DNA of 64,000 nucleotides. Source: Haloferula helveola. GTDB taxonomy: Bacteria; Verrucomicrobiota; Verrucomicrobiia; Verrucomicrobiales; Akkermansiaceae. The notes beneath the pieces were generated by a model, which made no database searches, had not been told where the DNA came from, and was given only the letters and a program-made list of their open reading frames with translations. The translations under genes were made by a program, and so were the position numbers. Location of the stretch: positions 3,410,001 to 3,474,000 of the forward strand of contig NZ_AP024702.1 of assembly GCF_037076345.1 (NCBI RefSeq). Direction: 5' to 3'. This document shows positions 16,395 through 41,428 of the stretch, piece after piece. The stretch's first letter is position 1. The number at the start of each line of letters is the position of its first letter.

Positions 16395-19300
16395 ATGAAA
16401 AAACTCCACGTCCTGTCGTCGGGGCTCGCCGCCCTTTGCGTATCGACCGCCTCCGCGGGTCTGCTTGCCCACTACCCGTTCGACTCCGATTTCACCGATT
16501 CGACCGGTGCATCGAATGATCTCACGGCGGGCAATGGCACCCCCGTGATCACGAACACTGTCGGTGAGTATGTCTTCGGCGGTGGAGCCTTGGATCTGAG
16601 CAGGGCGGAGAGCGAGTGGCTCGCGCCAACCACCGACTTCAGTTTCAGCACCAGTGACTCCTGGACGGTCAGCTTCTGGGCGAAGCGACGGGCAGGCGCG
16701 GCCGCACCGACCGGAATGGTGGTCGGCGACAATACAACCACCGACAGCTTCATCTGGCTTCCCGACAACAGCAGCGTGGTCCAGGGACTCCGCTTCCGCC
16801 CGGTGGGCGTGGGCACGAGCAACAACAACGACTACTCGACCGGTCACGACACTGACTTCCACCACTGGGTCGTGATCGCTGATGGGACCGGGACGATCCG
16901 GGTGTATCGAGACAATGCCGACCTCGGCACCCGCACGCCGAGCGGTGGCAGCGACTTCGACATCAAGGCGGTTGGCAGCGGCTACACCGGGAGCAACCAG
17001 ATCTTCGACGGCCAGATCGACGAACTCTACATCTTCGACGAGGCCCTCGATGTCGCCACGGTGGGTGAGTTGTTCTCGGGAAGCTATGGGGCGACGGATT
17101 CGACGCCTCCGACGCTGGTCGGCAGTGATATTGTGGATGGCGGCGGCGGTGCTGCCGTAATCGAAAACGGTCTGGTGACCTACACGGTTACCTTCAGCGA
17201 GGAGATGACGGCTCCGACGGTGGACACGACGGACTTCGGCGATGCCGGTACATCGGGTGTCAACATTCTCAGTGTGACCCAGGTTTCGCCGGCGGTTTTC
17301 GAAGTCTTGGTCTCGCCAACTTCCACTGGCACTCTCCAACTCCAGGTGAATCCGGGAGCGGTGCTGACCGACGGTGCCGGCAACGCGCTCGACACGGCTT
17401 CGGCCATCATCGACGACACGTCGATCCAGGTCGATCCAGGTGCGGTTCTTCCGGGAGTGATTGGCTACTATTCCTTCGACAGCGGTTTCGGCGATGATTC
17501 GGGCAACGGCAACCACCTCGTGGTGGGGGACGGTACCCCGACGATCACCACCACGGCTGGCGAGCACGTCTTCGGCGGAGGAGCGCTGGACCTCGATAGT
17601 GCGACTTCCAACCAAGAGTTTCTCGATCTGATCTCGCCTCTTTCGTTCGGAGCTTCGGACCCTTGGTCGGTTTCCTTCTGGGTGCGTCGGCGTGCCGGAT
17701 CGGACGATCGCCAGGGGATGGTTCTGGGTGACACCACCAACACGACCGACTTCATCTGGGCCACCAACAGCACCAGCCAGGTGCAGGGATTGAGATTCCG
17801 CGATGACCTAGGGGGAAATGCCGACTTTGGAGACTATCCCGACGACGGCAGCTACCATCACTGGGTCGTGATTTCGGACGGTGCGGGCACGATCACCGCC
17901 TACCGGGACAACGTGGCACAGACCGACGTGTTCCAAGGCGGCGCTTTCGCAATCACTTCGGTGGGTCACGCCTACAGTGCCACGACGTTCTCGATGAACG
18001 GGCAGATCGACGAGCTTTACATCTTCGACAACGCGATCGACTCGGCCAAGGTGAACGAACTCTTCACCGGCGTTCCCGATACCGATCCTCCGACGCTTTC
18101 GGCGGGCGGATTTGTGGATGACCAGAGCGGCGGGCCGGTGCTCGTCGGCGACCTCGTGACGTACACCGTGACCTTCAGTGAGGACATGGATGATTCGACC
18201 GTGACCGCTGCGGACTTCGGCAATGCCGGATCCTCGACACTCAGCATCGGAGCCGTGATCGAGACCTCTCCCGGCGTGTTTACCGTGGAGGTGACCCCGA
18301 CTTCCGCCGGAACGCTCCAGCTCCAGGTGAATGTCGGGGCCGTGCTCGCCGATCCCTCCGGCAACGAACTCGATACGCTGGCCGCGATTGCCGACGCCAC
18401 TGTGATCACGGTGGACTCGCCGGACACGACACCGCCGACCTTGGGGGCAGGTGATTTCTCCGACGACCAGGGTGGTGGACCGGTGACGGTCGGAACAACC
18501 GTCACCTTTACGATCAGTTTCAGCGAGGACATGGACGAGTCGACCGTCGATGCCGCCGACTTCGGCAACGCCGGAACGGCGACCATCAGCATTGGCGCGA
18601 TCAGCGAGGTGTCGCCGGGTGTCTTCACGGTGGAAGTCACGCCGACCACCGCCGGAACCCTTCAGCTCGAAGTCGTGGCTTCGGCGACTCTCGATGACGC
18701 GGCAGGCAACCCTCTGGACACGGGTTCCGCGATCACCTCCGCTACCAGCATCACGGTCGAGGATCTCCCGGGGCCTGCCGACATCCGGCGCATCCATGTG
18801 TTCCTGCTGGGTGGTCAATCGAATGCGGACGGCCGCGCGGATCCGTCGGGCCTACCAACCTCACCGGTCGATCTCCAGCAACCGCAGGCCGACGTCGATT
18901 TCTACGAGAACGAGGCCGGCGGGCTGACGACCCTGCGCCCCCTGTCGCAGTTCGGTCCCGAGGTCACCTTGGGTCGCAAGCTCGCGGACAATCTCGGCGG
19001 TGATCCGGACACTCGCGTCGCGATCATCAAGTACGCCAGCGGCGGCACCGATCTCTACAGCGATTGGGTGGCCGGCGGTGACGCCACAACGACCGGCGAC
19101 GGCCCGCTTTACGTCGGCTTCCAGAATGTGGTGACTGCCGGACTGTCGGCGCTGGCGTCGGCCTATCCGAATGCCGTGATCGAGGTTTCCGGCATGCTTT
19201 GGGTCCAGGGCGAGCGCGATGCAGGATCGTCGGAAGCGGCGAACTACGAGACCAACCTGACCAACTTCATTGCCGACATTCGCCTGACCTATGGCAGCGG

Positions 19301-19760
19301 ATTGTGGTTCGTGGTCAGCCGGCTTTCCTCCGGACAAACGGCGGTCAATGCGGGCGGTCTCGCGACGGTTCGTGCGGCGCAGGACGCGGTCGCGGCGGCG
19401 GATTCGCTGACCGCGCTGCTGGATACCGACGGCTTCGGCATGAAGACGGACAACCTGCACTTCGATGCGACCGGCCAGCAACAGATCGGCAACGGGGCCG
19501 CCATGTGGCTGCTTGATTTCTGGCCGTTCCTTGAGCCGCTCGAATTCACCCCGCAACCGGGTGGAGGCTTCGAGATCGTCGTCAATCAGGCCTTTGACGG
19601 ATTCGTCTATACGCTCGAGGGAAATCCCGATCTGCAACCGGTGAACTGGGCCGAGATCGAGACCCTTCCGCCCACGGGATCCTCGGTCACCTTCAGCCAC
19701 ACGCCAGCTCCCGGCGCGGATCGCGAGTTCTACCGGGTGACGCGGGCGATGGCACCGTGA
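16395..19760 (+). CDS. exported LamG / Ig-like protein fused to a sialate O-acetylesterase (SGNH) domain
   Basis: 1121 residues. Order: signal peptide; LamG (about 22-230); Ig-like (235-340); LamG (345-560); two Ig-like repeats (565-665 and 670-780, with repeated 'TYTVTFSEDMDDSTV'-type strands); an SGNH/SASA esterase (about 795-1050) with the nucleophile motif GGQSNADGR and the acid-base motif DNLHFDATG; and a short C-terminal module ending EFYRVTRAMAP. SASA enzymes remove acetyl groups from sialic acid or plant glycans. It lacks a PEP-CTERM tag, unlike its neighbour. It may act on acetylated pectin or another glycan (inference). Confidence 0.85.
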   Translation: MKKLHVLSSGLAALCVSTASAGLLAHYPFDSDFTDSTGASNDLTAGNGTPVITNTVGEYVFGGGALDLSRAESEWLAPTTDFSFSTSDSWTVSFWAKRRAGAAAPTGMVVGDNTTTDSFIWLPDNSSVVQGLRFRPVGVGTSNNNDYSTGHDTDFHHWVVIADGTGTIRVYRDNADLGTRTPSGGSDFDIKAVGSGYTGSNQIFDGQIDELYIFDEALDVATVGELFSGSYGATDSTPPTLVGSDIVDGGGGAAVIENGLVTYTVTFSEEMTAPTVDTTDFGDAGTSGVNILSVTQVSPAVFEVLVSPTSTGTLQLQVNPGAVLTDGAGNALDTASAIIDDTSIQVDPGAVLPGVIGYYSFDSGFGDDSGNGNHLVVGDGTPTITTTAGEHVFGGGALDLDSATSNQEFLDLISPLSFGASDPWSVSFWVRRRAGSDDRQGMVLGDTTNTTDFIWATNSTSQVQGLRFRDDLGGNADFGDYPDDGSYHHWVVISDGAGTITAYRDNVAQTDVFQGGAFAITSVGHAYSATTFSMNGQIDELYIFDNAIDSAKVNELFTGVPDTDPPTLSAGGFVDDQSGGPVLVGDLVTYTVTFSEDMDDSTVTAADFGNAGSSTLSIGAVIETSPGVFTVEVTPTSAGTLQLQVNVGAVLADPSGNELDTLAAIADATVITVDSPDTTPPTLGAGDFSDDQGGGPVTVGTTVTFTISFSEDMDESTVDAADFGNAGTATISIGAISEVSPGVFTVEVTPTTAGTLQLEVVASATLDDAAGNPLDTGSAITSATSITVEDLPGPADIRRIHVFLLGGQSNADGRADPSGLPTSPVDLQQPQADVDFYENEAGGLTTLRPLSQFGPEVTLGRKLADNLGGDPDTRVAIIKYASGGTDLYSDWVAGGDATTTGDGPLYVGFQNVVTAGLSALASAYPNAVIEVSGMLWVQGERDAGSSEAANYETNLTNFIADIRLTYGSGLWFVVSRLSSGQTAVNAGGLATVRAAQDAVAAADSLTALLDTDGFGMKTDNLHFDATGQQQIGNGAAMWLLDFWPFLEPLEFTPQPGGGFEIVVNQAFDGFVYTLEGNPDLQPVNWAEIETLPPTGSSVTFSHTPAPGADREFYRVTRAMAP

Positions 19761-19869
19761 GTCAGGGTTCAAGGGACTGAACGGCTACCGGATTCGGGGA
19801 AAGCGGGCGTTCCGCCTCGGGCAGGGTGACTTGATCCGCGCTGCGGGACGTCGTATGGAGGACCAACCC

Positions 19870-22800
19870 ATGAGAACCTTCGTCCATCGCCGCCGCCGAC
19901 TGCCCAGGGCGGGTCGTGCCGCTCTGCTGACTCTGCTGGTCGGGAGCGCATCCGCCCAGAGTCTGATCCATCATTGGAGGCTCGATGGCGACGCGACCGA
20001 TGCGGTGGGGTCGGCGGACGGAACCGAAAACGGAGGAATGACTTACGCCGTCGGGCAGTTCGGACAGGCGGCAAGCTTGGACGGGGCCGACGACTTCATC
20101 ACGACAGCGGCGGGTGCGCTGGTTCCGATCACCGACTGCACGCTGACCGCGTGGGTTTTCTGGGACGATGGCGACGATCGCGGACGGATCGCCGGTGGGC
20201 AGAGCGGAGGGAGTGAAGGTGAGGTGTTCAGCCTGAGCCGAAGCACCGCGGTTCAGGGCGGAACGGACCGGAAGCTGTTTCTGAATCTTCTGCCGAACGG
20301 AGGGCAGGGAGGCTCGATCACCGAGTCGGCGGACAGCACGATCTCCATCGGGACATGGATGCACGTCGCCTACACGGTCGACAGCACCAACGGCACCACG
20401 ATCTACCTCAACGGTGCACCGGTCGGAACCAACCCGACCCGCACGACCCACACCCCGGCCACCAATTTCGCGATCGGGGGACGGGCCGACGCGGCTCAGG
20501 ATTTCTTTGATGGCCTGATGGATGAGGTCGCGATCTTTTCCGGCGTGCTCGATGCCGCGCAGCTCTCGAACGTGATGTCGTTCGGCGCGGAGAATTTTGA
20601 CGCTCCACCCCAAGTCCTGTTGAGCCATTGGAAGCTCGACGAGACCAGCGGCCAGACCGCGGCGGACTCCGCGGGCGCCAGTCCGGGAACCCTCGGCATC
20701 TCCGCTTCGGCGGAGACCGAGGATCCGACGGTCAACCAGCCGGGGGTATTCGGCACCGCCTACCGTTTCGACACTGTGGATCTCGACCGGGTCGATGTCC
20801 CGAACTTCGCGCCCTTCGGAGGCTTCAATACAGGTTCGATCTGCGGGTGGTTCAAGAAGAGCAGCGCCACGCGTGGAGCGGTTCTCAGCTACGGCGAAGG
20901 TACGAGTTCGTCGGATCGCCTGGTCGTCGAACTTCAGGACACCGGAGTTCTCCGGTTGGTCATACGTGAGAACAACAGCAACCTGATTGAGCTCCAGACG
21001 ACCGCCACCTACCTCGACGACGTGTGGCATCACTTCGCGTGGGTGCAGGATGGCTCGGGCGTCACGCTCTACCTCGACGGGGCGGAGGTGACTTCGTTCG
21101 GGATCGAAACCAACGGCAGCGCGTGGTTCGACAGCGTCACGAACGTCGGGCAGATGACCCTCGGCTACGAGGCGCGCACGGGAGGCGTGCAGTTGCCGTT
21201 CGGCGGCTCGGTCGACGACATCGCGATTTTCTCCCGCCCCATCACGACGCAGGAACTGGCGAACATCATCAGCAGTGGTGCGGAGAGCTACGACACCGAT
21301 GCCACGGCTCCGACGATCACCGCTCTCAGCCCGGATGGCGATACGGGTGTCTATCCCGCGTCGTCTTTGGTGGCGACTTTCAGCGAGAACATCGTGCTGA
21401 CCGGGCTTGGCACGATCACGATCACCGACACCGATGATGGAAGCGGCACCCAGGTCATCAGCCTGCCGGACGCGGGACAGGTTACGGTCGCGGGAAACAC
21501 CCTGACCGTGAATCCGTCCACCAATCTCGAGTTCGGCGCCAATTTCGAAGTGGTGATCAGCGCCGATGCGATCGAGGACGGCGCCTCGCCACCGAATTCC
21601 TTTGCCGGCACCAGCGGCGGACAGTGGACCTTCAGCGTCGCTGCGGAGGATCTCAGCGCTCCGGTGATCACGCTCAAGAGTCCGCTAGACGACGCGATCG
21701 ATGTCTCCCGCGCGTCGGACATCGTGGCGACTTTCGACGACCCGATTCTCGTCGGCAGCGGCAACATCGTGATCAAGGACCTGTTCGATGACTCGACGAC
21801 CCAGACGATCGCGGTCACCGATCCTTCGCAGGTCAGCGTTTCGGGCAACGTCCTCACGATCGATCCGTCGACCCTCCTCAGCGCCGACCGGGCCTATGCG
21901 GTGCAGATCGATGCGGGCGCGGTGAAGAACTATACGGACGTCGGCTTCGGCGGTATCTCAAATGCGGACGTCACGACATGGAACTTCCAAACGCGCGAGC
22001 TCAGCCCGAATGTCGTCTTCATCCTCGGCGACGACCAGGCGTGGTACGACTACAGCTTCATGCGTCGGCCATCGGTCGAGCAGACGGCGATCAACATGAA
22101 CCCGTCGATCTATCAGGTCGCCGAGACGCCGGCCATCGACAGTCTGGCCGATCAGGGCATTGTCTTCACCCACGGTTACACGCCGCCGATCTGCCGGCCC
22201 TCGCTGGCCTCGATGGTGACCGGAGCCTATCCGCACCAGACCCTGATCACCGGCAACGATCCGGCGAGCGGGCCGGATACGGCGGTCGAGGACCGGATGC
22301 AGGTGATGAATCCGCTTCCACGGACGCTTGCCGACGAGCTGGGCTACACGAGTTTCCAGACGGGAAAATGGTGGGAAGGCGACTTCGCCAACGGCGGCTT
22401 CACCCACGGCGACACCGTCAACAGCACCGCGGGTGGGACCGAGCCACCGCAGTGGAGCGGCGGCAAGCCGGGCTACGTCACCGCGAGACACGGCGATTGG
22501 GGCCTGATGGCCGGCCGGGTTGATTACGTGAACGACGTGGCCGCTCCCGCCAGCCCGATCCCATACGCCAACACGATCCAGACGGCGACCGACTTCATCG
22601 ATGCCCAGGTCACCGGCGAGCAGCCGTTCTTCCTCTGGTACGCGCCGTTTCTTCCGCACACGCCCCACGACCCGCCGACCGGATTGATCAGCAAGTACGA
22701 TGCGCTCATCAGCGAGCCGAACGAGACGGGCGACTACTTCGCGAAGTACTATGCCAACATCGAACGCTTCGACGGCGGGGTGGGCGCGCTTCTCGATCAC

Positions 22801-23778
22801 CTCGACACCGCGGGGATCGCGGACAACACGATCGTGGTGCTGATCTGCGACAACGGCTGGATCAACCGCGACAATGCCAGCGCCTATGATGCGAGGTCGA
22901 AGCAGACGCCTTACCAAGGCGGCATCCGCACCCCGATCATCGTTCGCTGGCCCGATCAGATCAAGGCGGGCGGCGCGATCGAGCCGCAGATCGTTACCAC
23001 GCCGGTGAGTGTGGTTGATCTGGCCCCGACGGTCCTTGGCGCGCTCGATCTTGTTCCGACTCCGGAAATGACCGGCCTCGATCTGCTCGACCTCGGTGCG
23101 GTCGGCGCGCGCGACACGGTGTTCACCGAAGACAGCTCGCATGACATCGCCGACCTCAATGACCCTAGCCAATCGCTCGAGTCGCGGGTGGCGATCCGCG
23201 ACGGCTGGAAGCTGATCCTGTTCACCACCGGTGTGGCCGAGCTGTATCATCTGTTCGATGCCTCGACCGGCAATGCGATCGATCCGTTCGAGACCAACGA
23301 CCTTTCGGCATCGAATCCGGGGCTCGTCAACGAGCTGACGGCGGCGATCGTCAATTGGTACTCGGTCGGGACGAAGACATTCGCCACGTGGATCGGTGAT
23401 CCCGGGTTTGGTCTGGCCGGTGGAGACCAAGGCTTCGATCTCGATCCGGACGGCGACAACCTCGCCAACGGTCTCGAGTCGTGGTTCGGCACCCATCCGG
23501 GCGAGTTCAACCCGGGTCTGGCGAGCGTCGAGGTCACGGCCGGCAATCTGAGCTTCACGCACCCGATCAGCCCGAATCCTCCGACCGATCTGGTCGGCTA
23601 CTACGAATGGTCTCCGAACCTGACCGATTGGTATGCCGGTGACGGCATCGATGGTCCGGGCGGCGGCCTGACCGTTACGATCTCGTCAGTGATCGACAAT
23701 TCGACTGCCACGGTGACGGCCGCGCCGAGCCAGCCGGTGCCGAGCATCTTCGTGAGGGCCGGGGTGGTCCAACCCTAG
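19870..23778 (+). CDS. exported LamG / Ig-like protein fused to a sulfatase
   Basis: 1302 residues. The chosen ATG has a GGAGG ribosome-binding site eight bases upstream. Order: signal peptide; two LamG domains (about 25-240 and 249-475); two SbsA-type Ig domains (482-595 and 597-705); a type I sulfatase (about 711-1165, NVVFILGDDQAWYDY; LICDNGWINRDNA); an Asp-rich hinge (DLDPDGDNLANG); and a C-terminal module ending SIFVRAGVVQP. The formylglycine site reads ICRPSLASMVTG: the Cys (near residue 775) and Pro are kept, but the canonical Arg at +4 is Leu. It probably removes sulfate from a polysaccharide. Confidence 0.85.
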   Translation: MRTFVHRRRRLPRAGRAALLTLLVGSASAQSLIHHWRLDGDATDAVGSADGTENGGMTYAVGQFGQAASLDGADDFITTAAGALVPITDCTLTAWVFWDDGDDRGRIAGGQSGGSEGEVFSLSRSTAVQGGTDRKLFLNLLPNGGQGGSITESADSTISIGTWMHVAYTVDSTNGTTIYLNGAPVGTNPTRTTHTPATNFAIGGRADAAQDFFDGLMDEVAIFSGVLDAAQLSNVMSFGAENFDAPPQVLLSHWKLDETSGQTAADSAGASPGTLGISASAETEDPTVNQPGVFGTAYRFDTVDLDRVDVPNFAPFGGFNTGSICGWFKKSSATRGAVLSYGEGTSSSDRLVVELQDTGVLRLVIRENNSNLIELQTTATYLDDVWHHFAWVQDGSGVTLYLDGAEVTSFGIETNGSAWFDSVTNVGQMTLGYEARTGGVQLPFGGSVDDIAIFSRPITTQELANIISSGAESYDTDATAPTITALSPDGDTGVYPASSLVATFSENIVLTGLGTITITDTDDGSGTQVISLPDAGQVTVAGNTLTVNPSTNLEFGANFEVVISADAIEDGASPPNSFAGTSGGQWTFSVAAEDLSAPVITLKSPLDDAIDVSRASDIVATFDDPILVGSGNIVIKDLFDDSTTQTIAVTDPSQVSVSGNVLTIDPSTLLSADRAYAVQIDAGAVKNYTDVGFGGISNADVTTWNFQTRELSPNVVFILGDDQAWYDYSFMRRPSVEQTAINMNPSIYQVAETPAIDSLADQGIVFTHGYTPPICRPSLASMVTGAYPHQTLITGNDPASGPDTAVEDRMQVMNPLPRTLADELGYTSFQTGKWWEGDFANGGFTHGDTVNSTAGGTEPPQWSGGKPGYVTARHGDWGLMAGRVDYVNDVAAPASPIPYANTIQTATDFIDAQVTGEQPFFLWYAPFLPHTPHDPPTGLISKYDALISEPNETGDYFAKYYANIERFDGGVGALLDHLDTAGIADNTIVVLICDNGWINRDNASAYDARSKQTPYQGGIRTPIIVRWPDQIKAGGAIEPQIVTTPVSVVDLAPTVLGALDLVPTPEMTGLDLLDLGAVGARDTVFTEDSSHDIADLNDPSQSLESRVAIRDGWKLILFTTGVAELYHLFDASTGNAIDPFETNDLSASNPGLVNELTAAIVNWYSVGTKTFATWIGDPGFGLAGGDQGFDLDPDGDNLANGLESWFGTHPGEFNPGLASVEVTAGNLSFTHPISPNPPTDLVGYYEWSPNLTDWYAGDGIDGPGGGLTVTISSVIDNSTATVTAAPSQPVPSIFVRAGVVQP

Positions 23779-24915: not shown

Positions 24916-24997
24916 GGGGTGAGTGCATGGGAGTCGTCCGGCCGTGTGGAAAGCGGTCGCCCACCCGATCGAGTCCACTTCTCTTTTCCCGAAACCC

Positions 24998-26569
24998 ATG
25001 AAACTCCTTCTTCCGCTGCTTCTGACGCTCGGCCTCGTCCGCGCTGCCGAGAATCCGCCGAACGTCGTCTTCATCCTCGCGGATGACCTCGGTATCACCG
25101 ATATCGGAGCCTACGCACGTCACTTCAACGAGGTCGGTGAGGGCCAGCTCTACTTTGAGACGCCCCACCTCGATCGGCTTGTTTCGGACGGGATCGCGTT
25201 CTCGCAGTCGTATGCGAACCAGCTCTGCTCGCCGACGCGTGCCGCGATCCTGACCGGCCGCATCGCCTCGCGCCTCGGTGTCACCACCGCCACGCCGAAC
25301 ACCCAAACCTACTACAACCAAAGTAGGAAGGTTCCCGACGGCTACGATCCCCACGACGCGTTCGCCCACAAGGACCCGATCCCCGGTCCGCTACCGTGGC
25401 GCAATGCCCACAGCAACACGGCTCTGGATCCTTCGGTCCCGACGTGGCCGAAGGTGCTCGGCAGCCATGACTGTGCCTTTCTCGGCAAGTGGCACCTCGG
25501 TGGTCACGGCGCACCCGAACGTCAACCGGCCGCCCACGGTTTCCGCGAACTCGCGTTCTTCGATGCCGGCGGATCGAAATACTTCAACTGGCAGGGCGAC
25601 TGGAACCGCACCAAGCCCTTCTTCCCCACCATGCCCGGGAAGTTCAGAGCCGGGCAGGCCGGTCCGCCGACCGACCACGACTACCTGACCGATGACCTGA
25701 GCTTGAGGGCGGTGCGCTTCATCGAGAGCCGCAAAGGAAAGGAGCGGCCGTTTGTCCTCTACTACTGTCCCTTCGCGGTGCACACGCCTTTCCAGGCTCC
25801 GAAGCCGGGTGTCGATCACTTCAACGCGAAGAAGCAGCGTGGGAACCTCGGCAGGACGAACGCGACCTACGCGGAAATGGTGAAGCGGCTCGACGCGTCG
25901 GTCGGGGAGATCCGGGAGACGCTCGTACGGACCGGGCTGGCGAAGAACACCATCCTGATTTTCACCTCGGACAATGGCGGCGTCGAATACACCGATCCTC
26001 CTGCGACCGACAACCAACCCTTCAAGGGCGGCAAGGCCTGCCTCTACGAAGGCGGCGTGAGGGTGCCGACCGTTGTCTGGCAGCCGAGCCGCTTCGAAGG
26101 CGGGAAGTGGTGCGACGCGGTCGTCGACTGCACCGACTTCCTGCCGACGGTCGCGGAGCTGACCGGCAACCCGCTCCCGGACGATCTCGACGGCCGGAGC
26201 ATGCTCCCGCTTCTCGCCGATCCGTCCTCACCGGGAGCCGAGCGGACCTTGATCTGGCACTACCCCTTCAATGTGAAAGTCATGCATCCCGACGACGGGA
26301 TTCCGCTCCCGCCGCACTCGGCGATCCGCGTCGGCGACCACAAGCTGATCTGGAATTGGCACGGTCGGCTCGAGCTCTATGACATTCCGAAAGACCCGGG
26401 CGAGTCGCGGGACCTTTCGAAGGAAATGCCGGAGCTGACGGCACGCCTGCATGAACGGCTCAAGGGCTGGCTCAAGTCGAACGTCGCCCCGCGCTACATG
26501 CCGGTCCGGGACGAGTCGGTGAGCCCGGATGCCGCGGGTGGAGCCTTCCCGTTTCGCGACCTCCGCTAG
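24998..26569 (+). CDS. exported type I sulfatase
   Basis: 523 residues with a signal peptide (LLPLLLTLGLVRAAEN). The N-terminal metal-binding motif is VVFILADDLGITDIG. The formylglycine site is the canonical CSPTRAAILTGR. Later motifs are LGKWHLGGHG and FTSDNGGVEYTDPPATDN. The C-terminal part (LELYDIPKDPGESRDLSKE) is typical of Bacteroidetes/Verrucomicrobia polysaccharide sulfatases. It needs an anaerobic sulfatase-maturating enzyme or equivalent, which is not in this window. Substrate unknown; the neighbouring pectin enzymes suggest an acidic glycan. Confidence 0.92.
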   Translation: MKLLLPLLLTLGLVRAAENPPNVVFILADDLGITDIGAYARHFNEVGEGQLYFETPHLDRLVSDGIAFSQSYANQLCSPTRAAILTGRIASRLGVTTATPNTQTYYNQSRKVPDGYDPHDAFAHKDPIPGPLPWRNAHSNTALDPSVPTWPKVLGSHDCAFLGKWHLGGHGAPERQPAAHGFRELAFFDAGGSKYFNWQGDWNRTKPFFPTMPGKFRAGQAGPPTDHDYLTDDLSLRAVRFIESRKGKERPFVLYYCPFAVHTPFQAPKPGVDHFNAKKQRGNLGRTNATYAEMVKRLDASVGEIRETLVRTGLAKNTILIFTSDNGGVEYTDPPATDNQPFKGGKACLYEGGVRVPTVVWQPSRFEGGKWCDAVVDCTDFLPTVAELTGNPLPDDLDGRSMLPLLADPSSPGAERTLIWHYPFNVKVMHPDDGIPLPPHSAIRVGDHKLIWNWHGRLELYDIPKDPGESRDLSKEMPELTARLHERLKGWLKSNVAPRYMPVRDESVSPDAAGGAFPFRDLR

Positions 26570-26862: not shown

Positions 26863-27489
26863 TTGAGCCCGACAGCAATCGATTCCAGTCCCGCGGTGGT
26901 GGAGGGCCTGCAAGCCCGGGGATGGGTGCGCCTTGATGGCTTCCTTTCGGAAACGGACGCCCGCGAACTATCCGCCGAAAGCGTGGAAGCATGGGAGTCG
27001 GGCGAGTTTCGCAAGGCCGGTGTCGGCCGCGGCGAGCAACGCGTGATCCGTGAGGACATCCGCCGCGACCACGTGCTGTGGCTGGAGCCGGGGACGGCCG
27101 GTCCCGCCGCGCAACGCTATCTCGCGAAACTCGAGGAACTGCGCAGTGCGATCAACCGCAGTCTGTTTCTCGGGCTGTTCGATTTCGAAGGGCACTTCGC
27201 GGTCTATCCGCCGGGTGCGTTTTACAAGGCCCACCTCGACCGCCACCGGGGCACCGCCGACCGCGTGGTGACGGCGATCCTTTACCTCAACGACGGCTGG
27301 GTGCCCGCGGACGGCGGACGCCTCAAGCTCTGGACCGAACCCGGCTCGCAGGAGGGGCCGGCGGAGTGGGTCGAGCCGAAGCTCGGAACACTGGTCGTCT
27401 TTCTTGCCGGCGACCACTGGCACGAAGTCGAGATGGCTTCGCGCACCCGCATGAGCGTGACCGGCTGGTTCCGGGTTCGTGGAGCCTGA
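26863..27489 (+). CDS. 2-oxoglutarate/Fe(II)-dependent oxygenase (prolyl 4-hydroxylase-like)
   Basis: 208 residues from a TTG start. The jelly-roll catalytic core is at about 95-208. Iron ligands are visible as H-x-D in FYKAHLDRHRG and a distal His in DHWHEVEM, and the 2-oxoglutarate-binding Arg probably lies in SRTRMSVTGWFR. The N-terminal part (VEGLQARGWVRLDGFLSE) is also typical. The family hydroxylates proline or other side chains on proteins or small molecules. No operon partner is evident. An internal GTG at about residue 12 is an alternative start. Confidence 0.8.
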   Translation: MSPTAIDSSPAVVEGLQARGWVRLDGFLSETDARELSAESVEAWESGEFRKAGVGRGEQRVIREDIRRDHVLWLEPGTAGPAAQRYLAKLEELRSAINRSLFLGLFDFEGHFAVYPPGAFYKAHLDRHRGTADRVVTAILYLNDGWVPADGGRLKLWTEPGSQEGPAEWVEPKLGTLVVFLAGDHWHEVEMASRTRMSVTGWFRVRGA

Positions 27490-27661: not shown

Positions 27662-29674
27662 ATGGTCTGCCGATTCGCCTGTTCCCTTGCTCTCGCCATC
27701 TGCGCCGTTGATGCCTCTGACACATGGACGGTGAGTGCCGACGGCCTTGGCGACTTCAAAACCCTTCAGGCTGCCATCGACAAAGTCCCCGAAGGCAAGA
27801 GCACCGCGATACGGATCCGCCTGATGCCCGGCCTCTATGTGGAACGGGTGATGATCCCGCGAAGCAAGGGACCGATCCATCTCTTCGGCGATGATGCGGA
27901 AACCACCGTGATCACTTTCAACAACTCCGCGGAGACACTGGATGACCGGGGACGCAAGATCGGGACTTCGCGTAGCGCGAGCGTGTTCATCGAGTCGGAT
28001 GGCTTCCGGGCGAGGAACGTGACCTTCGAAAACAGCCACGGTCGCGGCAGCCAGGCGCTGGCGGTGAATGTCAGCGGCGACCGCGCCGCATTCGATGGCT
28101 GCCGTTTCGTCGGTTACCAGGACACCCTGCTTCTCAATCGCGGACGGCAGTACTTCGAGAACTGCCTCATCACAGGCGACGTCGACTTCATCTTCGGGGA
28201 AGCAACCGCGTTCTTCGAGAACTGCACGATTCACTGCCGGGGGAGCGGCTACATCACGGCCGCATCGACGCAGGAGAAGGACGAGTATGGCTTCGTCTTC
28301 CGCCGATGTCGGATCACCGCGGACGAAGGGGACTGGCAGTTCTTCCTCGGGCGTCCTTGGCGGCCCCACGGCGCGGTGATGTGGCTGGACTGCGAGATGT
28401 CGGACCGCGTCCGACCGGAAGGCTGGGACAACTGGAGGAACCCGGAGAACGAGAAGACCGCCCGCTACGTCGAATGGCGTACTCGCGGTACGGACACCGG
28501 GCAGCGCGTCAAGTGGGCGGGCACCCTCACCGATCGCGAGGCCCGTTCGGTCACGCCCTACCGCGTGCTGCGGAAATGGGACGCGCCGCACACGCTCGAG
28601 CCGGCAAGGGTGGCGGCATTGCGGGACGATCTGCGCCCGGCATGGGAGAGCTACATTTCCGAATCAGCCCGCCGGATGGAGGCCGACCGGGCCGCACTTG
28701 CCGCCGAATTGAAGCGTGAGGGGCGAAAGATCCCGTTGCTTCCTCCGGATGGCCCGGATTTCAAGCTGCGGTCGCGGGCGGATGCGAAGTGGTTTGCTGG
28801 CGACGAGGCCCGCCGGTTGGCCGAGGCGGCGATCTCCTTCCAGACACCCGCCGGCGGATGGTCGAAGCACGTGCGGCTCGATCAGGGGCCACGCAAGCCG
28901 GGGATGCACTGGACGGCACAAGGCGGCGAGTCCGGCTGGCACTACGTCGGGACGATCGATAACCGCTCGACCACCGAACAGCTGAAATTGTTGCGCGGCG
29001 TGGCCGAGCACTTGCCCGCGGCGAAGGAGTCTTTTCTCAAAGGCATCGACTACCTGCTGGTCGCGCAGTTTCCCAATGGCGGCTGGCCCCAGGTGTATCC
29101 GCTTGAAGGCGGATATCATGACCACGTGACCTTCAACGACAACGCCATGCTGCATGTGCTCGAGCTGTTTCGCGATCTGCTTGCGGATCCGCCTGAGTTC
29201 ATTGAGCCCAAACGGCTGGCTGCGGTCAGGTCGGCCTTCGAGAAGGGGATTGAGTGTGTGCTCGATGCGCAGGTCAGGACCGATGGGGAGCGGACCGTCT
29301 GGTGCGCGCAGCACGACCCGCTCACGCTTGAGCCGGTCGAGGCGCGGCTGATGGAACCGGCCTCGCTCAGTGGCGGAGAGAGCGCCGCGCTGGTTGCTTT
29401 TCTGATGGGATTGGAGAACCCGTCGCCCGAGGTCCGGCAGGCGGTCGAAGCGGCACTCGACTGGTTCGAGAGCCACGAACTGGAAACGACGGACAACGAT
29501 CGCCGATGGGCGAGGTTCTACGACCCGGTCACCGGGCAACCGATTTTCCCCGGCGCCGACGGGATCATCTACGGGAGCTTCGACGAGATGGCGAAGCACC
29601 ACCCGGTCGGCTACGACTACTTCTCCGGCAAGCCGGCCGACCTGCTCAAGCGCCGCGGGAAGTGGAGCCGGTAG
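27662..29674 (+). CDS. bifunctional pectin methylesterase (CE8)-pectate lyase (PL10)
   Basis: 670 residues with a signal peptide. The CE8 domain is at about 20-315, with motifs YQDTLL (residue ~155), GDVDFIFGEATAFFE (~178) and FLGRPWRPHG (~230) that carry the catalytic Asp pair and the substrate Arg. After a charged linker, the PL10 pectate lyase domain covers about 375-665 (WFAGDEARRLAEAAISFQTP, NGGWPQVYPLEGGYHDHVTF). The first domain removes methyl esters from pectin, and the second cleaves the resulting polygalacturonate by beta-elimination. Putting both in one polypeptide couples consecutive steps. It lies among sulfatase and esterase genes. Confidence 0.93.
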   Translation: MVCRFACSLALAICAVDASDTWTVSADGLGDFKTLQAAIDKVPEGKSTAIRIRLMPGLYVERVMIPRSKGPIHLFGDDAETTVITFNNSAETLDDRGRKIGTSRSASVFIESDGFRARNVTFENSHGRGSQALAVNVSGDRAAFDGCRFVGYQDTLLLNRGRQYFENCLITGDVDFIFGEATAFFENCTIHCRGSGYITAASTQEKDEYGFVFRRCRITADEGDWQFFLGRPWRPHGAVMWLDCEMSDRVRPEGWDNWRNPENEKTARYVEWRTRGTDTGQRVKWAGTLTDREARSVTPYRVLRKWDAPHTLEPARVAALRDDLRPAWESYISESARRMEADRAALAAELKREGRKIPLLPPDGPDFKLRSRADAKWFAGDEARRLAEAAISFQTPAGGWSKHVRLDQGPRKPGMHWTAQGGESGWHYVGTIDNRSTTEQLKLLRGVAEHLPAAKESFLKGIDYLLVAQFPNGGWPQVYPLEGGYHDHVTFNDNAMLHVLELFRDLLADPPEFIEPKRLAAVRSAFEKGIECVLDAQVRTDGERTVWCAQHDPLTLEPVEARLMEPASLSGGESAALVAFLMGLENPSPEVRQAVEAALDWFESHELETTDNDRRWARFYDPVTGQPIFPGADGIIYGSFDEMAKHHPVGYDYFSGKPADLLKRRGKWSR

Positions 29675-29678: not shown

Positions 29679-31739
29679 TCAGGGGGCGGCGGTCTGGATG
29701 ATCCGGTAGAACGCGCTCGACCCCGTCGCCGACCCGTCATCCCAAATCATCTCCGGATCGGTGGCCTGAACCGGACCCTCGACCGTCTGCCAGGTGGAGA
29801 AGTCGCTGGTCTTCTCGACTCGGTACCAAAGCCCGGGAGCAGCCTGCCAGCGGATCCGGGCGACGCTTGGAGAGAGCCGCGCGATGTCGGGGACCATCGC
29901 TTCATCGGTAATACTGCCATCCCAGTACTTCCGGGCGATCTCCCACGCGCTCTTGCCACATTCCGAGCCGATCACGCGCGCGGGCAGGTCATCGACCGGC
30001 GGGTGGATGCCGCCCCATCGCCTGGAAATCCCGGCTTCGTCGGCCGCATCGAAGTAGGTCGCCCACTGGAGTTCCACGGTGGCCGACGGTCCATACTCGA
30101 ACTCGAGGAATGATCCCGCCCCTGCAGTGAATCCTCCGAGTCCGCCGGGGAAGTAGTCGCTGCCGGTCAGGGCGGCGAGAACCTCGGCGGCCGCCCGGCT
30201 GAAGGTGCTGTGGCCCGAGACGTATCCCGGAAAAGCGGGGGACACGAAAGTTCGGTCCTGAAAGGGGAACCAATCGATCCCCCGGATCCAGCGGGGAAGG
30301 CTCCGCTGGACGGTCGGGTCCACCGGCCTGCCCGGCCAGGTGAACACCACCACCTCGCCCACGGAGAAGCCGCTGCCCTCGTGGTTGCCACCCGGCGCCA
30401 GCGAGTCGCTGGTGACCACCTCGACCAAGTCGGAAACGAGCGGCATTCCCTCGGGATGGTAGCCCGGCAGAACCGGGTCCGACGACTGGCCCTGCAGCGA
30501 CATGAACCGGATCATCGAGATCGGGCGAGGCGAGTCGTAGTAGCGCTTCAGCGACCATGCGGCACAGGCGGCGTCGTGGGTCGATGCGGCGAGCGCGAAG
30601 TAGAGTTTCACGTCCCACTCGAGGTCGCTGACGATCGCCCCGGCGCCACCGATACGTTTTTCGGTCAGAACCTCGGTCACTTCGTTTGCGATCGAGTGCC
30701 AGTGCCCCGGAGGCGTTTCGGAGTCAGGACCGTCGGCCCAGAATTCCGCCAGCACCCTGCCGTAGTCGCCCCGCGGCACCATGACCGGATCGTAGGGCAG
30801 ACCGGTGGCAGGATTGACGGGGTGACCGGTGCCGTCATCGGTGCCGAGCGGATGGTTGCCGATCGCCGAGGGCGAGATGTCGATCAACTCCATGTCGCCG
30901 AGCTGGCGGCTCTTCATCAGCAAATCCAACGCTTCGCTTCGGTACTCCGCCGCCTGCCCGCCCCGGAGCTTCGGCGGTGGGCCGGGATCGAACCACGGTT
31001 CGGCCGTGTCGTCGCGGCGCAGTGCGAACGGCCGGGCTTGCAGCCAGGTGACGCCAACGAACGGCTGAAGGAAAATCGGACCGATCCCGTTCTGGGTGAA
31101 GCCCTCGTCGAAAGTCAGCGGATGCCAGCGGTCCGGATCCGCGCCCGCCGGATAGCCACCGAGCGGCACGCCGTTTTCGATCACCCGGAACTCCGGTTGG
31201 TCGTTGGTGTAGCTCGCGTCGGTGTAGCCCCCGGCCTCGTTGGAGCCGTCGTCGAGCCCCCAAGCAATGATCGAGGCCGCGATGCGGTTTCCCAGCGCCG
31301 CGGGGGACGGACCTGCGGTTCCCGTGACCGCGGTGTCGTAACCCAGCGCCGCCATTTTGGCATCGAACGAGGCCTGCGTCACCGGCGCGCTGGCGGAGCT
31401 GGCGTAGCGGTGGCTCAGGACGCGGTAGGCGGCGTAGCTCAGCGCTTCGCGGCGGGCGCTCTCGATGTCGGCCGCCGTCGCCGACTCGTGGTGCAGGTAG
31501 CCGACCGCCCCACCGGTGTCGTAGGCCGCCCAAGCGTCATACATCGCCACCGCGACATGGAACAGGTTGCGCGCGTGAACCGGCGGATTCGGGACATCGA
31601 CCCGAATCGCCGCCAGGTTTTCCTCGTTCCACTGCCGCGCCACCGAGGGGTCGGCCATGGCCGGTCCGGCAGTGACCAGGCAGGCGAGAATCCCTCCCCA
31701 TCGCGGTCGCTTACCGGGTGCCCGGCGACGGGCTGGCAT
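29679..31739 (-). CDS. exported vanadium haloperoxidase-like / PAP2-type protein
   Basis: About 686 residues with a signal peptide (GILACLVTAGPAMADP). The C-terminal half carries the vanadate/phosphate-binding PAP2 motifs: RYYDSPRPISMIRF, then PAFPGYVSGHSTFSRAAAEV (catalytic His) and RRWGGIHPPVDD. Residues about 620-686 form an extra C-terminal module (LWYRVEKTSDFSTWQTVEG ... SAFYRIIQTAAP) shared with other exported proteins here. Vanadium haloperoxidases oxidise halides with peroxide; others of the fold are phosphatases, so the activity is not settled. I preferred the ATG at 31739 over the GTG at 31784. It is convergent with the pectinase gene, four bases apart. Confidence 0.82.
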   Translation of the reverse strand: MPARRRAPGKRPRWGGILACLVTAGPAMADPSVARQWNEENLAAIRVDVPNPPVHARNLFHVAVAMYDAWAAYDTGGAVGYLHHESATAADIESARREALSYAAYRVLSHRYASSASAPVTQASFDAKMAALGYDTAVTGTAGPSPAALGNRIAASIIAWGLDDGSNEAGGYTDASYTNDQPEFRVIENGVPLGGYPAGADPDRWHPLTFDEGFTQNGIGPIFLQPFVGVTWLQARPFALRRDDTAEPWFDPGPPPKLRGGQAAEYRSEALDLLMKSRQLGDMELIDISPSAIGNHPLGTDDGTGHPVNPATGLPYDPVMVPRGDYGRVLAEFWADGPDSETPPGHWHSIANEVTEVLTEKRIGGAGAIVSDLEWDVKLYFALAASTHDAACAAWSLKRYYDSPRPISMIRFMSLQGQSSDPVLPGYHPEGMPLVSDLVEVVTSDSLAPGGNHEGSGFSVGEVVVFTWPGRPVDPTVQRSLPRWIRGIDWFPFQDRTFVSPAFPGYVSGHSTFSRAAAEVLAALTGSDYFPGGLGGFTAGAGSFLEFEYGPSATVELQWATYFDAADEAGISRRWGGIHPPVDDLPARVIGSECGKSAWEIARKYWDGSITDEAMVPDIARLSPSVARIRWQAAPGLWYRVEKTSDFSTWQTVEGPVQATDPEMIWDDGSATGSSAFYRIIQTAAP

Positions 31740-31806
31740 TTTCTTTCGATTCACTCGTCCAGATTCCGTCCGTCTCCGTATCACCCATTAGTAACGCCTC
31801 CGCCAA

Positions 31807-35987: not shown

Positions 35988-36427
35988 CCCGCCGCGCACG
36001 GCGACCCTTTTCCCACGATGAAACGACTTCCCAACAGATTCGGGACGACTGCGGCACCGCGGCAGCACCAGGCCGAGAGGCCCCGAGTGCGCTAACAAGA
36101 TGGCAGCGTCCCACCCCTCTCCATGAGAACAACGAAGCAAGGATCGAATCATGCACCCGGCCCCAAACGGAAGCGGGCCGGACAAATGCGAATGGAAGCC
36201 CGGAGCCTTGTTTCATTCCGTGACCGCCGCAGCAGCACTCGCTCGGTAACGACACGGGGCTGCCGCCCCGCACCCCGCCGAGCTGGGGTCAGCTCGACCA
36301 CACTCGGTTCCCCCCCAAACCCCCATCCGGGGGCTTCGCCCCTCCCGTCCCCCCGGGGAGCGGGGGGACATCTTCCAATCCTAACACTCCAGAACGAATG
36401 TTGAGGCAAACCTCAATTCCCAGTTGA
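35988..36427 (+). ncRNA. candidate bridge RNA region of the IS (3' non-coding end)
   Basis: About 440 GC-rich bases follow the transposase with no convincing gene and several strong hairpins (for example around 36261-36275 and 36318-36372). In the IS1111 subgroup the bridge RNA is expected on this side. Three short matches support it: GACTGCGG (36047-36054) and AACAAGA (36094-36100) repeat the two halves of the target junction, and CCATGAGAA (36121-36129) is complementary to the right end of the element. The RNA limits are unknown and the assignment is inference. Confidence 0.45.
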
Positions 36428-36445
36428 CTGCCTTCTCATGGAAGA

Positions 36446-36482
36446 CTGCGGTTAAGCGTCGATCTTCCATGGCTTGCTCGCC
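36446..36482 (-). other. right half of the IS-interrupted attC
   Basis: CTGCGGTTAAGCGTCGATCT and the following bases to GGCTTGCTCGCC closely match the right part of the attC at 42471-42597. The core reads GCTCGCC rather than the GTTCGCC expected from the cassette's own 5' core at 36786, so one base has mutated. Confidence 0.75.
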
Positions 36483-36498
36483 TTTCATGATTCCGGTG

Positions 36499-36780
36499 TC
36501 AGTCGTCCGTGGCATTTGTTCCAGGCCTATCTCGCCCCACGAAGGCCTTGATCAGCACGATCACGATGCCAACAACAATCCCCGCCGCGAAGCCTTGCGT
36601 CACCCCCTGTCCGATTCCGACTGCAACTGCGTTGAAGTCAGGATCCGATCCCGAGGAGAAGACGGTCCGGTAATAGTCGGGGAGAAACTTCCCAAGGAGA
36701 AATCCGACGACGAATCCAAAAGCACCGAACATAAGGCCGCTGCCAAAAACCGCCGTGATCGCATCGCGATAGCTCTTCAT
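36499..36780 (-). CDS. small membrane protein (cassette 16)
   Basis: 93 residues with two predicted membrane segments: about 10-32 (AVFGSGLMFGAFGFVVGFLL) and about 58-80 (GVTQGFAAGIVVGIVIVLI), joined by a polar loop. The gene starts seven bases from the cassette core. Its attC is the site split by the insertion sequence, so this cassette is probably no longer excisable. No family recognised. Confidence 0.7.
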   Translation of the reverse strand: MKSYRDAITAVFGSGLMFGAFGFVVGFLLGKFLPDYYRTVFSSGSDPDFNAVAVGIGQGVTQGFAAGIVVGIVIVLIKAFVGRDRPGTNATDD

Positions 36781-36785
36781 TTTCT

Positions 36786-36910
36786 GGCGAACGTTGAAGG
36801 TGAGACGCGCAAGCCGCGCCCGGTAGGAATCAATCAGATCCGGCCGCGTCTGGCGACTCCGATTCAACACGGGCGCTGATCGGCGTCGATCCTCCACCGC
36901 CTTGTTCTGC
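36786..36910 (-). other. attC of cassette 15
   Basis: 125 bp bounded by GGCGAAC (36786-36792) and GTTCTGC (36904-36910). The right core matches the 5' core of its own cassette at 37416 (GCAGAAC, read on the plus strand). Interior GTTGAAGGTGAGACGCGC is shared with other sites of the array. Confidence 0.85.
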
Positions 36911-36915
36911 TTTGA

Positions 36916-37407
36916 CTATTCGGCTGCGGACTCCGCCAAGCGGATACGCTCCAAGAGCGCCGTGAAGGTAGCATCGTAGTCACTGCGATCGAAGACGAAC
37001 GTGGTCGGATCATAGACAGGTTTAAATCCCTCTCCAGCGCCGGAGAAGCCTAGCCCGGACCAGAACACCCTCTTCGGTCCAACGAATATTCGTGTCCAGA
37101 TCCCGCCGCAGCCCTCCCAACCGCAGTCGCTGCACGCCAAGAGCGGTAGTAGGCCAGCCCAGCGCCCTCGGTATCCGGGATGGTGGCCAGTGCGATAGGC
37201 ATCCTCACGCCCACGGACAATCCAGGCGGAAACACCAACAAATGTTCCATCAGGGTTGCTCGCTTGTGGACTCGCCATCAGCTGGGGCTCCAGCCGCCTC
37301 ATACGCTGCCAAACGGACTCGGAATCGATCTCGAAGTCCACGATGGCGTCTGGCTCACCCTCGCAAATCGGTGACGAGCGCACCACAAATGACAGCTGGT
37401 TGCTCAT
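36916..37407 (-). CDS. hypothetical protein (cassette 15)
   Basis: 163 residues, predicted soluble, no signal peptide. It contains a cysteine cluster (LLACSDCGWEGCGGIWTRIF) that might bind a metal, and ends in an Ala/Glu-rich helix (FTALLERIRLAESAAE). The first ATG after the core is used as the start; longer in-frame reading would run into the neighbouring attC. No family recognised. Confidence 0.7.
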   Translation of the reverse strand: MSNQLSFVVRSSPICEGEPDAIVDFEIDSESVWQRMRRLEPQLMASPQASNPDGTFVGVSAWIVRGREDAYRTGHHPGYRGRWAGLLPLLACSDCGWEGCGGIWTRIFVGPKRVFWSGLGFSGAGEGFKPVYDPTTFVFDRSDYDATFTALLERIRLAESAAE

Positions 37408-37415
37408 CCATTTCA

Positions 37416-37548
37416 GCAGAACGTCAAAACTGAGGCGACCCCGGTAACCGCACCGGGAGCGCTGCGAGCAATCAATCAGCACCCAAAGGTGGCGGCAAGC
37501 GCGCAACACGGCCGCTGATAGGGGTCGCCCTCCAGTAGCTTGTTCGCT
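37416..37548 (-). other. attC of cassette 14
   Basis: 133 bp, bounded by GCAGAAC (37416-37422) and GTTCGCT (37542-37548). The right core matches the 5' core of cassette 14 at 37916 (AGCGAAC). The motif CGCTGATAGGGGTCG near the right end recurs in several sites. Confidence 0.87.
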
Positions 37549-37567
37549 TCGTCTATTGTCCGACACC

Positions 37568-37909
37568 TCAACGGCCCGCCGTCCAATAGAACGCCCCAGC
37601 GGTTGCTGCCGTCCACCAATAGAATGCAATCAACGCGACCACGACAATCGAGGCGATGATTGCAGCACGAAGGCCATCTAGATCGGCCCCCCGCCAAAGT
37701 AGAACGCCTAGCCAGATGGGCGGAATCAGGATCGCCCACCAACCCCAGCTCCTGATGAACACTGAAACCGGATTCCAGATGTAATGAGGGGCATCCGGGT
37801 AGCCATGAACTTTGAGCATGGCCATGGTGATCAGCGTCCCTCCGCAGATCACCGCAAACTGCAGAAGTAAAGCGACGGTCAAAGGGTTACGAAAGCCGTT
37901 CCAGAACAT
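37568..37909 (-). CDS. small integral membrane protein (cassette 14)
   Basis: 113 residues with three predicted transmembrane segments: about 10-30 (VALLLQFAVICGGTLITMAM), about 50-70 (SWGWWAILIPPIWLGVLLW) and about 80-100 (AAIIASIVVVALIAFYWW). It is short, Trp-rich and has no recognised family. The start is the first ATG after the core, seven bases inside the cassette. Confidence 0.72.
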   Translation of the reverse strand: MFWNGFRNPLTVALLLQFAVICGGTLITMAMLKVHGYPDAPHYIWNPVSVFIRSWGWWAILIPPIWLGVLLWRGADLDGLRAAIIASIVVVALIAFYWWTAATAGAFYWTAGR

Positions 37910-37915
37910 CTCTTC

Positions 37916-38030
37916 AGCGAACGTTCAAGGTGACTCACGACTGCCCGACGGCGCGACGCATGCCGGGAGCGCAGCGACCAAGCATGCGGCGTGACGGCGG
38001 GTGGTCGTTGAGTCCACCGCCTTGTTCGCC
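37916..38030 (-). other. attC of cassette 13
   Basis: 115 bp bounded by AGCGAAC (37916-37922) and GTTCGCC (38024-38030). From 37921 the sequence is identical to the attC of cassette 1 (45406-45520). It has long pairing arms (GACTCACGACTGCC / GGCGGGTGGTCGTTGAGTC region). Confidence 0.88.
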
Positions 38031-38036
38031 TTGATT

Positions 38037-38597
38037 TTATTGCGGTGGCAATTGGCTCCAAATGTGTTTGATCGCTGCATCAATCTCGGCTCGCTCATGC
38101 GTGTAATCTGGATCGTCCCGCATGAACTCAAGGAAATCCCGGACAACGGATCGCTGTTCCGGTGAAAGCAACGAGAACTGCTGCTCATTGTGCGGAGAGA
38201 TACGACAAAGCGACCCAATCAGTCCAGCGATTCCGTCATCACGCAATTCGGCAAACATCCAGGCCGGAAGATGGAAACGCATGCCCTCGGCATCTGTGAA
38301 GCTGATGCTACTCTGGTAGGAGAGCAGAGTTTCGGAGGAAAAGCGATGCCAGTCTATGCGCTCATCTTGGGCATGCAGCTGGGCTAGAACATCGGCGTCT
38401 TCGTAATCATCGAGTCCTCGCCCCTCCATGAGTCCTATTCCATCCCCTAGTGTGACCCCTGCAAACGCAGATTCGATCTTCTCTCTTAATCCGTTTACTG
38501 CCTCCCAGCGTTCGCTATCCGCGCGTGCTTCAAGAAGGACGGGATCGTAGCCACTCTCTTTCAAGCCTCGGATCTCATCTGGGCTGAGATACTTCAT
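38037..38597 (-). CDS. DUF6714-like protein (cassette 13, copy of cassette 1)
   Basis: 186 residues, predicted soluble. The pattern SAFAGVTLGDGIGLMEGRG ... RIDWHRFSSETLLSYQSSIS ... FLEFMRDDPDYTHERAE resembles DUF6714 family proteins (my recollection of the family, moderate). The gene, its start region and its attC are identical to 45527-46087 over 690 bp. An in-frame ATG at 38615 lies across the core site, so the inner ATG at 38597 is preferred. Function unknown. Confidence 0.8.
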   Translation of the reverse strand: MKYLSPDEIRGLKESGYDPVLLEARADSERWEAVNGLREKIESAFAGVTLGDGIGLMEGRGLDDYEDADVLAQLHAQDERIDWHRFSSETLLSYQSSISFTDAEGMRFHLPAWMFAELRDDGIAGLIGSLCRISPHNEQQFSLLSPEQRSVVRDFLEFMRDDPDYTHERAEIDAAIKHIWSQLPPQ

Positions 38598-38603
38598 TTT
38601 ATT

Positions 38604-38730
38604 GGCGAACGTCATAGCACACCAACCGCCTGACGGCAGCCGCGCGTTGACTGTGGGTTGAGGGTTCTAATCACGGTGAGAATCCGACTCGGAGCGGGTC
38701 AGGCGGTTGTGGTGCTGCGGCTTGTTCGCC
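38604..38730 (-). other. attC of cassette 12
   Basis: 127 bp, bounded by GGCGAAC (38604-38610) and GTTCGCC (38724-38730). The arms pair well: AGCACACCAACCGCCTGAC near the left end against GTCAGGCGGTTGTGGTGCT near the right, which gives the hairpin expected of attC. Confidence 0.9.
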
Positions 38731-38739
38731 TTGTTTGGA

Positions 38740-39282: not shown

Positions 39283-39292
39283 TTTGTTTTAG

Positions 39293-39419
39293 GGCGAACG
39301 TCAAAGGCCTGCCACCCGCTACGGGCAGCGCCCCTCCGACTCGTGTTTAAGGGATGTAGCGTTCATTCAGCTTTCGACTCCACGGCGGTAGCGGGTTGGT
39401 CAGCGCCGCCTTGTTAGCT
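39293..39419 (-). other. attC of cassette 11
   Basis: 127 bp, bounded by GGCGAAC (39293-39299) and GTTAGCT (39413-39419). The right core matches the 5' core of cassette 11 at 40041 (AGCTAAC). Arms around GCCTGCCACCCGCTACGGGC and GGCGGTAGCGGGTTGGTCAG pair. Confidence 0.88.
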
Positions 39420-39424
39420 CATTG

Positions 39425-40033: not shown

Positions 40034-40040
40034 TTTCTTG

Positions 40041-40168
40041 AGCTAACGTTGAAGCGCTGCCGACCCGACCCTCATGGCGGCCAGCGTGATTCATTGGCCA
40101 GTTTCTAGCCCCCTAAACGGTCTGCGACAAGGCCGCTGATTAGGGTCGGCAGCCGTGCCTTGTTAGCC
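40041..40168 (-). other. attC of cassette 10
   Basis: 128 bp, bounded by AGCTAAC (40041-40047) and GTTAGCC (40162-40168). The right core matches the 5' core of cassette 10 at 40584 (GGCTAAC). The stop codon of cassette 10 lies in the core. Confidence 0.88.
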
Positions 40169-40576: not shown

Positions 40577-40583
40577 TCTCTAT

Positions 40584-40713: not shown

Positions 40714-40724
40714 TATTGGGTTTC

Positions 40725-41276: not shown

Positions 41277-41281
41277 TCTGA

Positions 41282-41409: not shown

Positions 41410-41428
41410 TTTTTGTTCGGGCGCGCGA

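Follow-up and report, generated by a model that had tools for sequence, protein, structure and literature searches.

A rare CE8-PL10 fusion gene in Haloferula helveola encodes a probable secreted bifunctional pectinase

Domain structure of the fusion protein

A single open reading frame of the verrucomicrobium Haloferula helveola joins a CE8 pectin methylesterase domain to a PL10 pectate lyase domain, and we consider it likely, with a probability of roughly 0.8, that its product acts as a secreted bifunctional pectinase. The frame lies in a stretch of 64,000 nucleotides (contig NZ_AP024702.1, positions 3,410,001 to 3,474,000), referred to here as the window and analysed as a whole, within a genome that consists of a single contig of 5,677,198 bases (5.68 Mb) and is estimated to be 98% complete. 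CE8 enzymes hydrolyse the methyl esters of homogalacturonan, while PL10 enzymes cut runs of galacturonate with the help of calcium. As the fusion is genuine, probably carries a signal peptide and keeps the catalytic residues checked in both halves, demethylation followed by cleavage would be its natural reading. The N-terminal CE8 beta-helix would strip the methyl esters from homogalacturonan, yielding methanol and free galacturonate runs, and the C-terminal, mostly alpha-helical PL10 domain would process the freed runs by calcium-dependent beta-elimination to unsaturated oligogalacturonides; encoded by one gene, both activities would be made, exported and held together. Catalytic activity, the need for calcium, the order of action and any kinetic benefit are properties that we infer for this protein.

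The plus-strand frame comprises 670 codons from an ATG start and contains no internal stop; upstream of the ATG it remains open for three more codons only (673 in total). Residues 5-16 form a hydrophobic stretch with a mean Kyte-Doolittle hydropathy of 2.5, and homology to solved pectinesterases starts at residue 22-23, a combination that makes export by way of an N-terminal signal peptide likely. In Pfam, the first domain is recognised as Pectinesterase (PF01095, residues 23-301; 215.2 bits against a cut-off of 27, E 1.1e-63) and the second as Pec_lyase (PF09492, residues 394-661; 232.5 bits against a cut-off of 22, E 8.5e-69), E-values which exclude chance matches, and the NCBIfam pectate lyase equivalog TIGR02474 scores 230.3 bits against a cut-off of 189.8. 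Alignment to solved structures matches residues 23-299 to carrot pectin methylesterase (1gq8) and residues 307-669 to the PL10 lyase of Azospirillum irakense (1r76). Because the homology to 1r76 begins already at residue 307, hardly any sequence separates the CE8 part from the PL10 part; judged from the alignment, in which the segment of residues 307-393 is common to unfused PL10 relatives, this segment outside the Pfam PL10 model is the N-terminal part of a long-form PL10 domain and not a linker. An earlier note on this DNA had described CE8 followed by PL10 in one exported protein of 670 residues, and the Pfam matches, the likely signal peptide and the catalytic residues bear this out.

Table 1. 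Features of the fusion gene and its neighbours (positions in the window)
Feature	Positions	Strand	Basis or remark
SASA (PF03629) esterase with laminin-G domains	16395-19757		upstream of fusion; Pfam
Sulfatase	19831-23775		upstream of fusion; PF00884
Sulfatase	24923-26566		upstream of fusion; PF00884
2OG-Fe(II) oxygenase	26863-27486		upstream of fusion; Pfam
CE8-PL10 fusion gene, 670 aa	27662-29674	+	open frame without stop
Likely Sec signal peptide, residues 1-19	27662-27718	+	inferred from hydropathy and homology start
CE8 pectin methylesterase domain, residues 23-301	27728-28564	+	PF01095; 1gq8 alignment; fold match
Junction, residues 302-311	28565-28594	+	practically no linker, no signal-peptide-like stretch
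Long-form PL10 pectate lyase domain, residues 307-669	28580-29668	+	1r76 alignment; PF09492; fold match
PL10 Pfam core, residues 394-661	28841-29644	+	PF09492
Vanadium-chloroperoxidase-like domain protein	29682-31784	-	downstream, converging on fusion gene

Genomic setting and fate of the products

The earlier note also placed sulfatases and an acetylesterase near the fusion, where they would clear other substituents. Two PF00884 sulfatases and a PF03629 esterase are indeed present, but their association with the fusion is not supported, given some 129 sulfatase genes in the genome (135 matches at E 1e-10, with six split genes joined by eye). From this count about 1.5 sulfatases are expected per 64 kb and two are seen in the window, which is therefore unremarkable, and a functional system with the nearby sulfatases was ruled out, their proximity carrying no information about pectin. 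Thirty window proteins were scanned with Pfam, including the larger frames on both sides of the fusion gene; several had no match at all, no other pectin enzyme or sugar transporter was named among them, and they revealed no PUL-like pectin utilisation locus around the fusion. The window contains 95 frames of at least 180 aa, many of which are certainly not genes.

At E 0.001 the fusion is the sole PF01095 match and the sole PF09492 match in the genome; a second stretch, G000:C1:1083355-1083810, resembles the PL10 half weakly (E 7.4e-5) but gives no PF09492 match at this threshold. Four families of canonical pectin catabolism were searched for at the same threshold, namely GH28 (PF00295), GH88/105 (PF07470), KduI (PF04962) and PL22 (PF14583), and none has a match in the genome, while 4, 3, 6 and 1 of 14 control genomes, respectively, do match. 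The expected downstream route is thus not visible with these families. Both the solitary state of the gene and the four unmatched families speak for an enzyme that opens plant or algal walls or loosens a gel, instead of feeding a host that cannot process the products by the usual routes. We regard such a role as possible but unlikely, as the argument draws on four families, as other uronate routes, remote family members or transport of intact oligomers could take their place, and as a gene may be missed in a genome of 98% estimated completeness. A probable secreted bifunctional pectinase encoded by a lone gene, in a genome without a match to four usual galacturonate-processing families, poses the small puzzle of what use a sulfatase-rich verrucomicrobium makes of pectin. 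The more elaborate proposal of a practically linker-free, stand-alone pectinase that formed independently of the other known fusions and serves as a wall-opening tool or public good for a host unable to catabolise its products by known routes appears to us quite doubtful.

Occurrence of CE8/PL10 fusions

Fusions of CE8 and PL10 are rare yet recurrent. Within the genus, CE8 or PL10 is matched in 13 of 18 genomes (E 1e-20), and a match across both halves occurs in one, the window's own; likewise, 31 of 57 relatives show a match (E 0.001), with both halves spanned only in the own genome. A sample of 387 genomes of the phylum, in which the best three candidates per genome were scored so that fusions could be missed, contains 43 with a match at E 1e-30 and two in which a single frame was seen to encode both domains, namely the own genome and G315. 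The same fusion had been suggested as something to look for in related genomes; within the genus it was seen in the own genome alone, and in the phylum sample G315 showed a fusion of the reverse order. By hand count, 19 genomes of the phylum sample carry both domains: fused in 2, adjacent in 8, on one strand with some 5-8 kb between them in 3, and elsewhere in 6. In the adjacent pairs both genes share a strand and a gap of less than 1 kb separates them, with PL10 first in 7 of the 8; these counts agree with the earlier suggestion that the two genes frequently lie side by side.

Outside this sample, the 80 best of 411 confirmed named PL10 loci include one fused in the window's order, that of Abditibacterium sp. 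MAG YX2bin22 (L093, JAUJNG010000020.1), and four, L093 included, whose retrieved locus DNA, to which this count is limited, contains a CE8 domain at any position. In the phylum of this MAG, 20 of 201 genomes have a match (E 1e-20) and both halves occur in one frame only in the MAG itself, with the best five candidates per genome scored, so that here, too, fusions could be missed. Among plasmids, 64 records match, but in none of them does a single place reach 80% coverage of the query; the top match, in Hymenobacter volaticus, covers 75%. Six records of a phage collection match, again none covering 80% of the query, and the five rows listed all concern the CE8 half alone. A scan of genome contigs with the window protein alone returned 42 stretches that fit the pattern, none of which was confirmed.

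The three other proteins with both domains differ from the window protein in distinct ways. The Abditibacterium protein has CE8 followed by a long-form PL10, as in the window, and is 46-50% identical to it in each half, but its domains are separated by a segment of about 42 residues in which Ala, Thr and Pro abound, compared to about 10 between the two profile matches in the window protein. In G315, which belongs to the same class but another family, a protein of 879 aa (L057, 4428-7067, minus strand) likewise holds CE8 and PL10 in one frame; its order is PL10, GDSL-like esterase, CE8, the reverse of the window with an extra esterase in between. The Hymenobacter plasmid gene pelA (NZ_CP095063.1, L056), annotated as pectate lyase, encodes 680 aa with a CE8-like half followed by PL10; its PL10 match begins at profile position 72 (short form), whereas the window protein has the long form, and the gene adjoins GH28 and SusC/SusD genes.

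Other partners of PL10 were encountered among the loci as well. It stands behind a glucuronyl-esterase-like domain (PF22244) in L123 (3600-6104), while in L113 (4083-6008) the preceding domain is a polysaccharide deacetylase (PF01522), so PL10 seems to pair with several types of esterase or deacetylase. In Lentisphaerae GWF2_50_93 (G284), locus L061 (8104-13029) carries in tandem CE8, PL10 and a protein that by eye is esterase-like and ends in CE8; the tails of its CE8 and PL10 genes are similar and look, by eye, like a shared carbohydrate-binding module.

Catalytic residues and structure model

Catalytic positions were mapped via alignments to carrot pectin methylesterase, whose catalytic set we take to be Gln, Gln, Asp, Asp, Arg and Trp, and to Cellvibrio Pel10A, for which we presume a catalytic Arg and Asp residues of the substrate or calcium site. 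All six putative catalytic positions checked in the CE8 half (Q131, Q153, D154, D175, R231, W233) and all four putative catalytic or calcium-site positions checked in the PL10 half (D433, D493, R562, R618) are present. The six CE8 columns are conserved in 30-31 of 32 CE8 rows, and the PL10 columns in 123 of 123 rows for D433, D493 and R562 and in 121 for R618, a row count that omits L145 and L042 as partial copies of the proteins complete in L056 and L057. A protein of which one half only is active, the other serving as a binding or structural module, would be in keeping with the decay seen in the Hymenobacter protein, where three of the six catalytic positions of the CE8-like half (both glutamines and the tryptophan) are changed; with every position checked intact in both halves of the window protein, we deem this improbable here.

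The AlphaFold model of the fusion protein (mean pLDDT 82.8, pTM 0.64) is weakest at residues 1-18, 232-235 and 253-309; confidence is thus low where the CE8 domain ends, and the alignment behind the model had five other CE8 rows. Foldseek searches with the model returned 1r76 as the top match (TMt 0.88) and 1gq8 as the best pectinesterase (TMt 0.76). The loop that precedes the WARFYD motif is short and looked unique among the 10 rows inspected initially; that it is a peculiarity of the window protein was considered and ruled out, as spacings of 14-17 residues also occur in the ordinary PL10 rows L098, L012, L013, L113, L116 and L119.

The domain junction

Between residues 280 and 330 the mean hydropathy reaches a maximum of 0.17 (Kyte-Doolittle). 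By comparison, 69 of 85 PL10 ORFs have a 12-residue hydrophobic stretch (hydropathy at least 1.6) at most 45 residues before the domain, and 16, the window's among them, have none; these ORFs, which include those of the window and L093, were read from stop to stop, and a few of the stretches may precede the true start. In L093, a weaker hydrophobic stretch (1.77) persists between the domains. Since most unfused PL10 relatives possess a signal-peptide-like stretch that is absent at the junction, a join by frameshift appears unlikely. What the earlier note had named as fatal to the fusion, a sequencing frameshift or stop between the domains, is unlikely in a frame that has neither an internal stop nor a signal-peptide-like stretch at the junction. 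That an assembly or sequencing artefact joined two adjacent genes, a concern in a phylum where 8 of 19 genomes with both genes have them side by side, can be dismissed almost entirely: such an artefact should retain the PL10 signal peptide and an intergenic stretch, neither of which is present (a strong argument, though not an absolute one because 16 of the 85 PL10 ORFs also lack the hydrophobic stretch), third-position G+C stays high throughout the junction, and 7 of the 8 adjacent pairs have the opposite order.

The fusion gene has a G+C content of 0.644 and a third-position G+C of 0.807, the latter ranging from 0.764 to 0.899 in 14 other window genes. Recent import, considered on grounds of composition, was ruled out, as both values fit these compared genes.

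Origin of the fusion

The gene is probably the product of a join between a CE8 and a PL10 gene in which the stop of the former and the signal peptide of the latter disappeared. A PL10 tree was built from a choice of 32 of the 123 rows. In it, L093 is not the sister of the window domain but groups (99/97) with a Lentisphaerae PL10 that is unfused and directly preceded by a CE8 gene, and the sister of the window domain is, with weak support (64/85), an unfused domain of Chthoniobacter. Forcing L093 and the window protein together in this tree costs 16.1 log units and is rejected (p-AU 0.0125). In the CE8 tree, built from 28 of 32 rows after four long, uncertain or partial rows had been dropped, two CE8 domains from the genus of the window share a group with the window domain (89/88); L093 adjoins the group containing the window in the best tree (65/75), and one clade with L093 is not rejected (p-AU 0.128). 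Each of the two clade tests was run after an earlier tree had been seen, the earlier PL10 tree being poorly resolved. On balance, these trees lean towards a fusion in the window that arose independently of that in Abditibacterium: two separate joins are the better reading for the PL10 half, short of proof, and the CE8 half is compatible with one origin.

Comparison with known systems

Pectin methylesterase and lyase in one chain are already known, and the window protein is a further case, distinctive in that CE8 comes first, hardly any linker is present and no pectin locus surrounds the gene. The terms 'CE8-PL10' and 'CE8_PL10' were not found in the open-licence literature, which does not imply their absence from print. 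A study that covers Ruminococcus albus names PL10-CE8-Doc and PL10-CE8-CBM37 proteins (PMC4081043), which unite the two catalytic families of the window protein in one polypeptide; unlike the window protein, these proteins of a rumen bacterium have PL10 first and an added dockerin or CBM37. The same study lists a CE8-PL1-Doc protein for Ruminococcus flavefaciens, in which an esterase precedes a pectate lyase as in the window, but the lyase belongs to PL1 instead of PL10 and a dockerin is attached (PMC4081043). For CE8-PL1, PMC6223089 is a further listing. For Maribacter lineage 3, another study describes a PL10 pectate lyase that includes a methylesterase domain of family CE8 (PMC8072126), again uniting the two families, in an order taken from the name PL10-CE8 only. 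There the gene is part of a PUL, and the genomes carry raised numbers of GH28 and GH105 (PMC8072126), whereas the window gene stands alone in a genome that matches neither family. The window fusion is one more, possibly independent, joining of CE8 and PL10, nearly linker-free and with the domains in the rarer order, and presents itself as a compact candidate for a one-protein pectinase.

Other features of the window

A probable chromosomal integron occupies positions 36000-46800 and 46902-48221 of the window. A tyrosine recombinase (PF00589, PF13495; 46902-48221, plus strand) adjoins a cassette-like array in which some twelve frames on the minus strand, each of 180-240 aa, are separated by repeats of about 60 bases. 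The repeats have ends like GCCTTGTT and GAACGTC and resemble attC sites. One of seven array proteins scanned has a Pfam match, DUF6714. Within the array, two 300-base stretches 7.5 kb apart (37911-38210 and 45401-45700) are 99% identical and perhaps represent the whole or a part of a cassette that was duplicated. Four to five imperfect repeat copies with a spacing of 77 bases (first step 63) fill positions 46441-46794, where the array gives way to the integrase, and next to the integrase (48610-48785) 7-base repeats follow one another, beginning as TCCCGCA and changing to ACCCGCG and ACCTGCG. An IS110-family transposase (PF02371, PF01548; 34920-35984) marks the edge of the cassette array.
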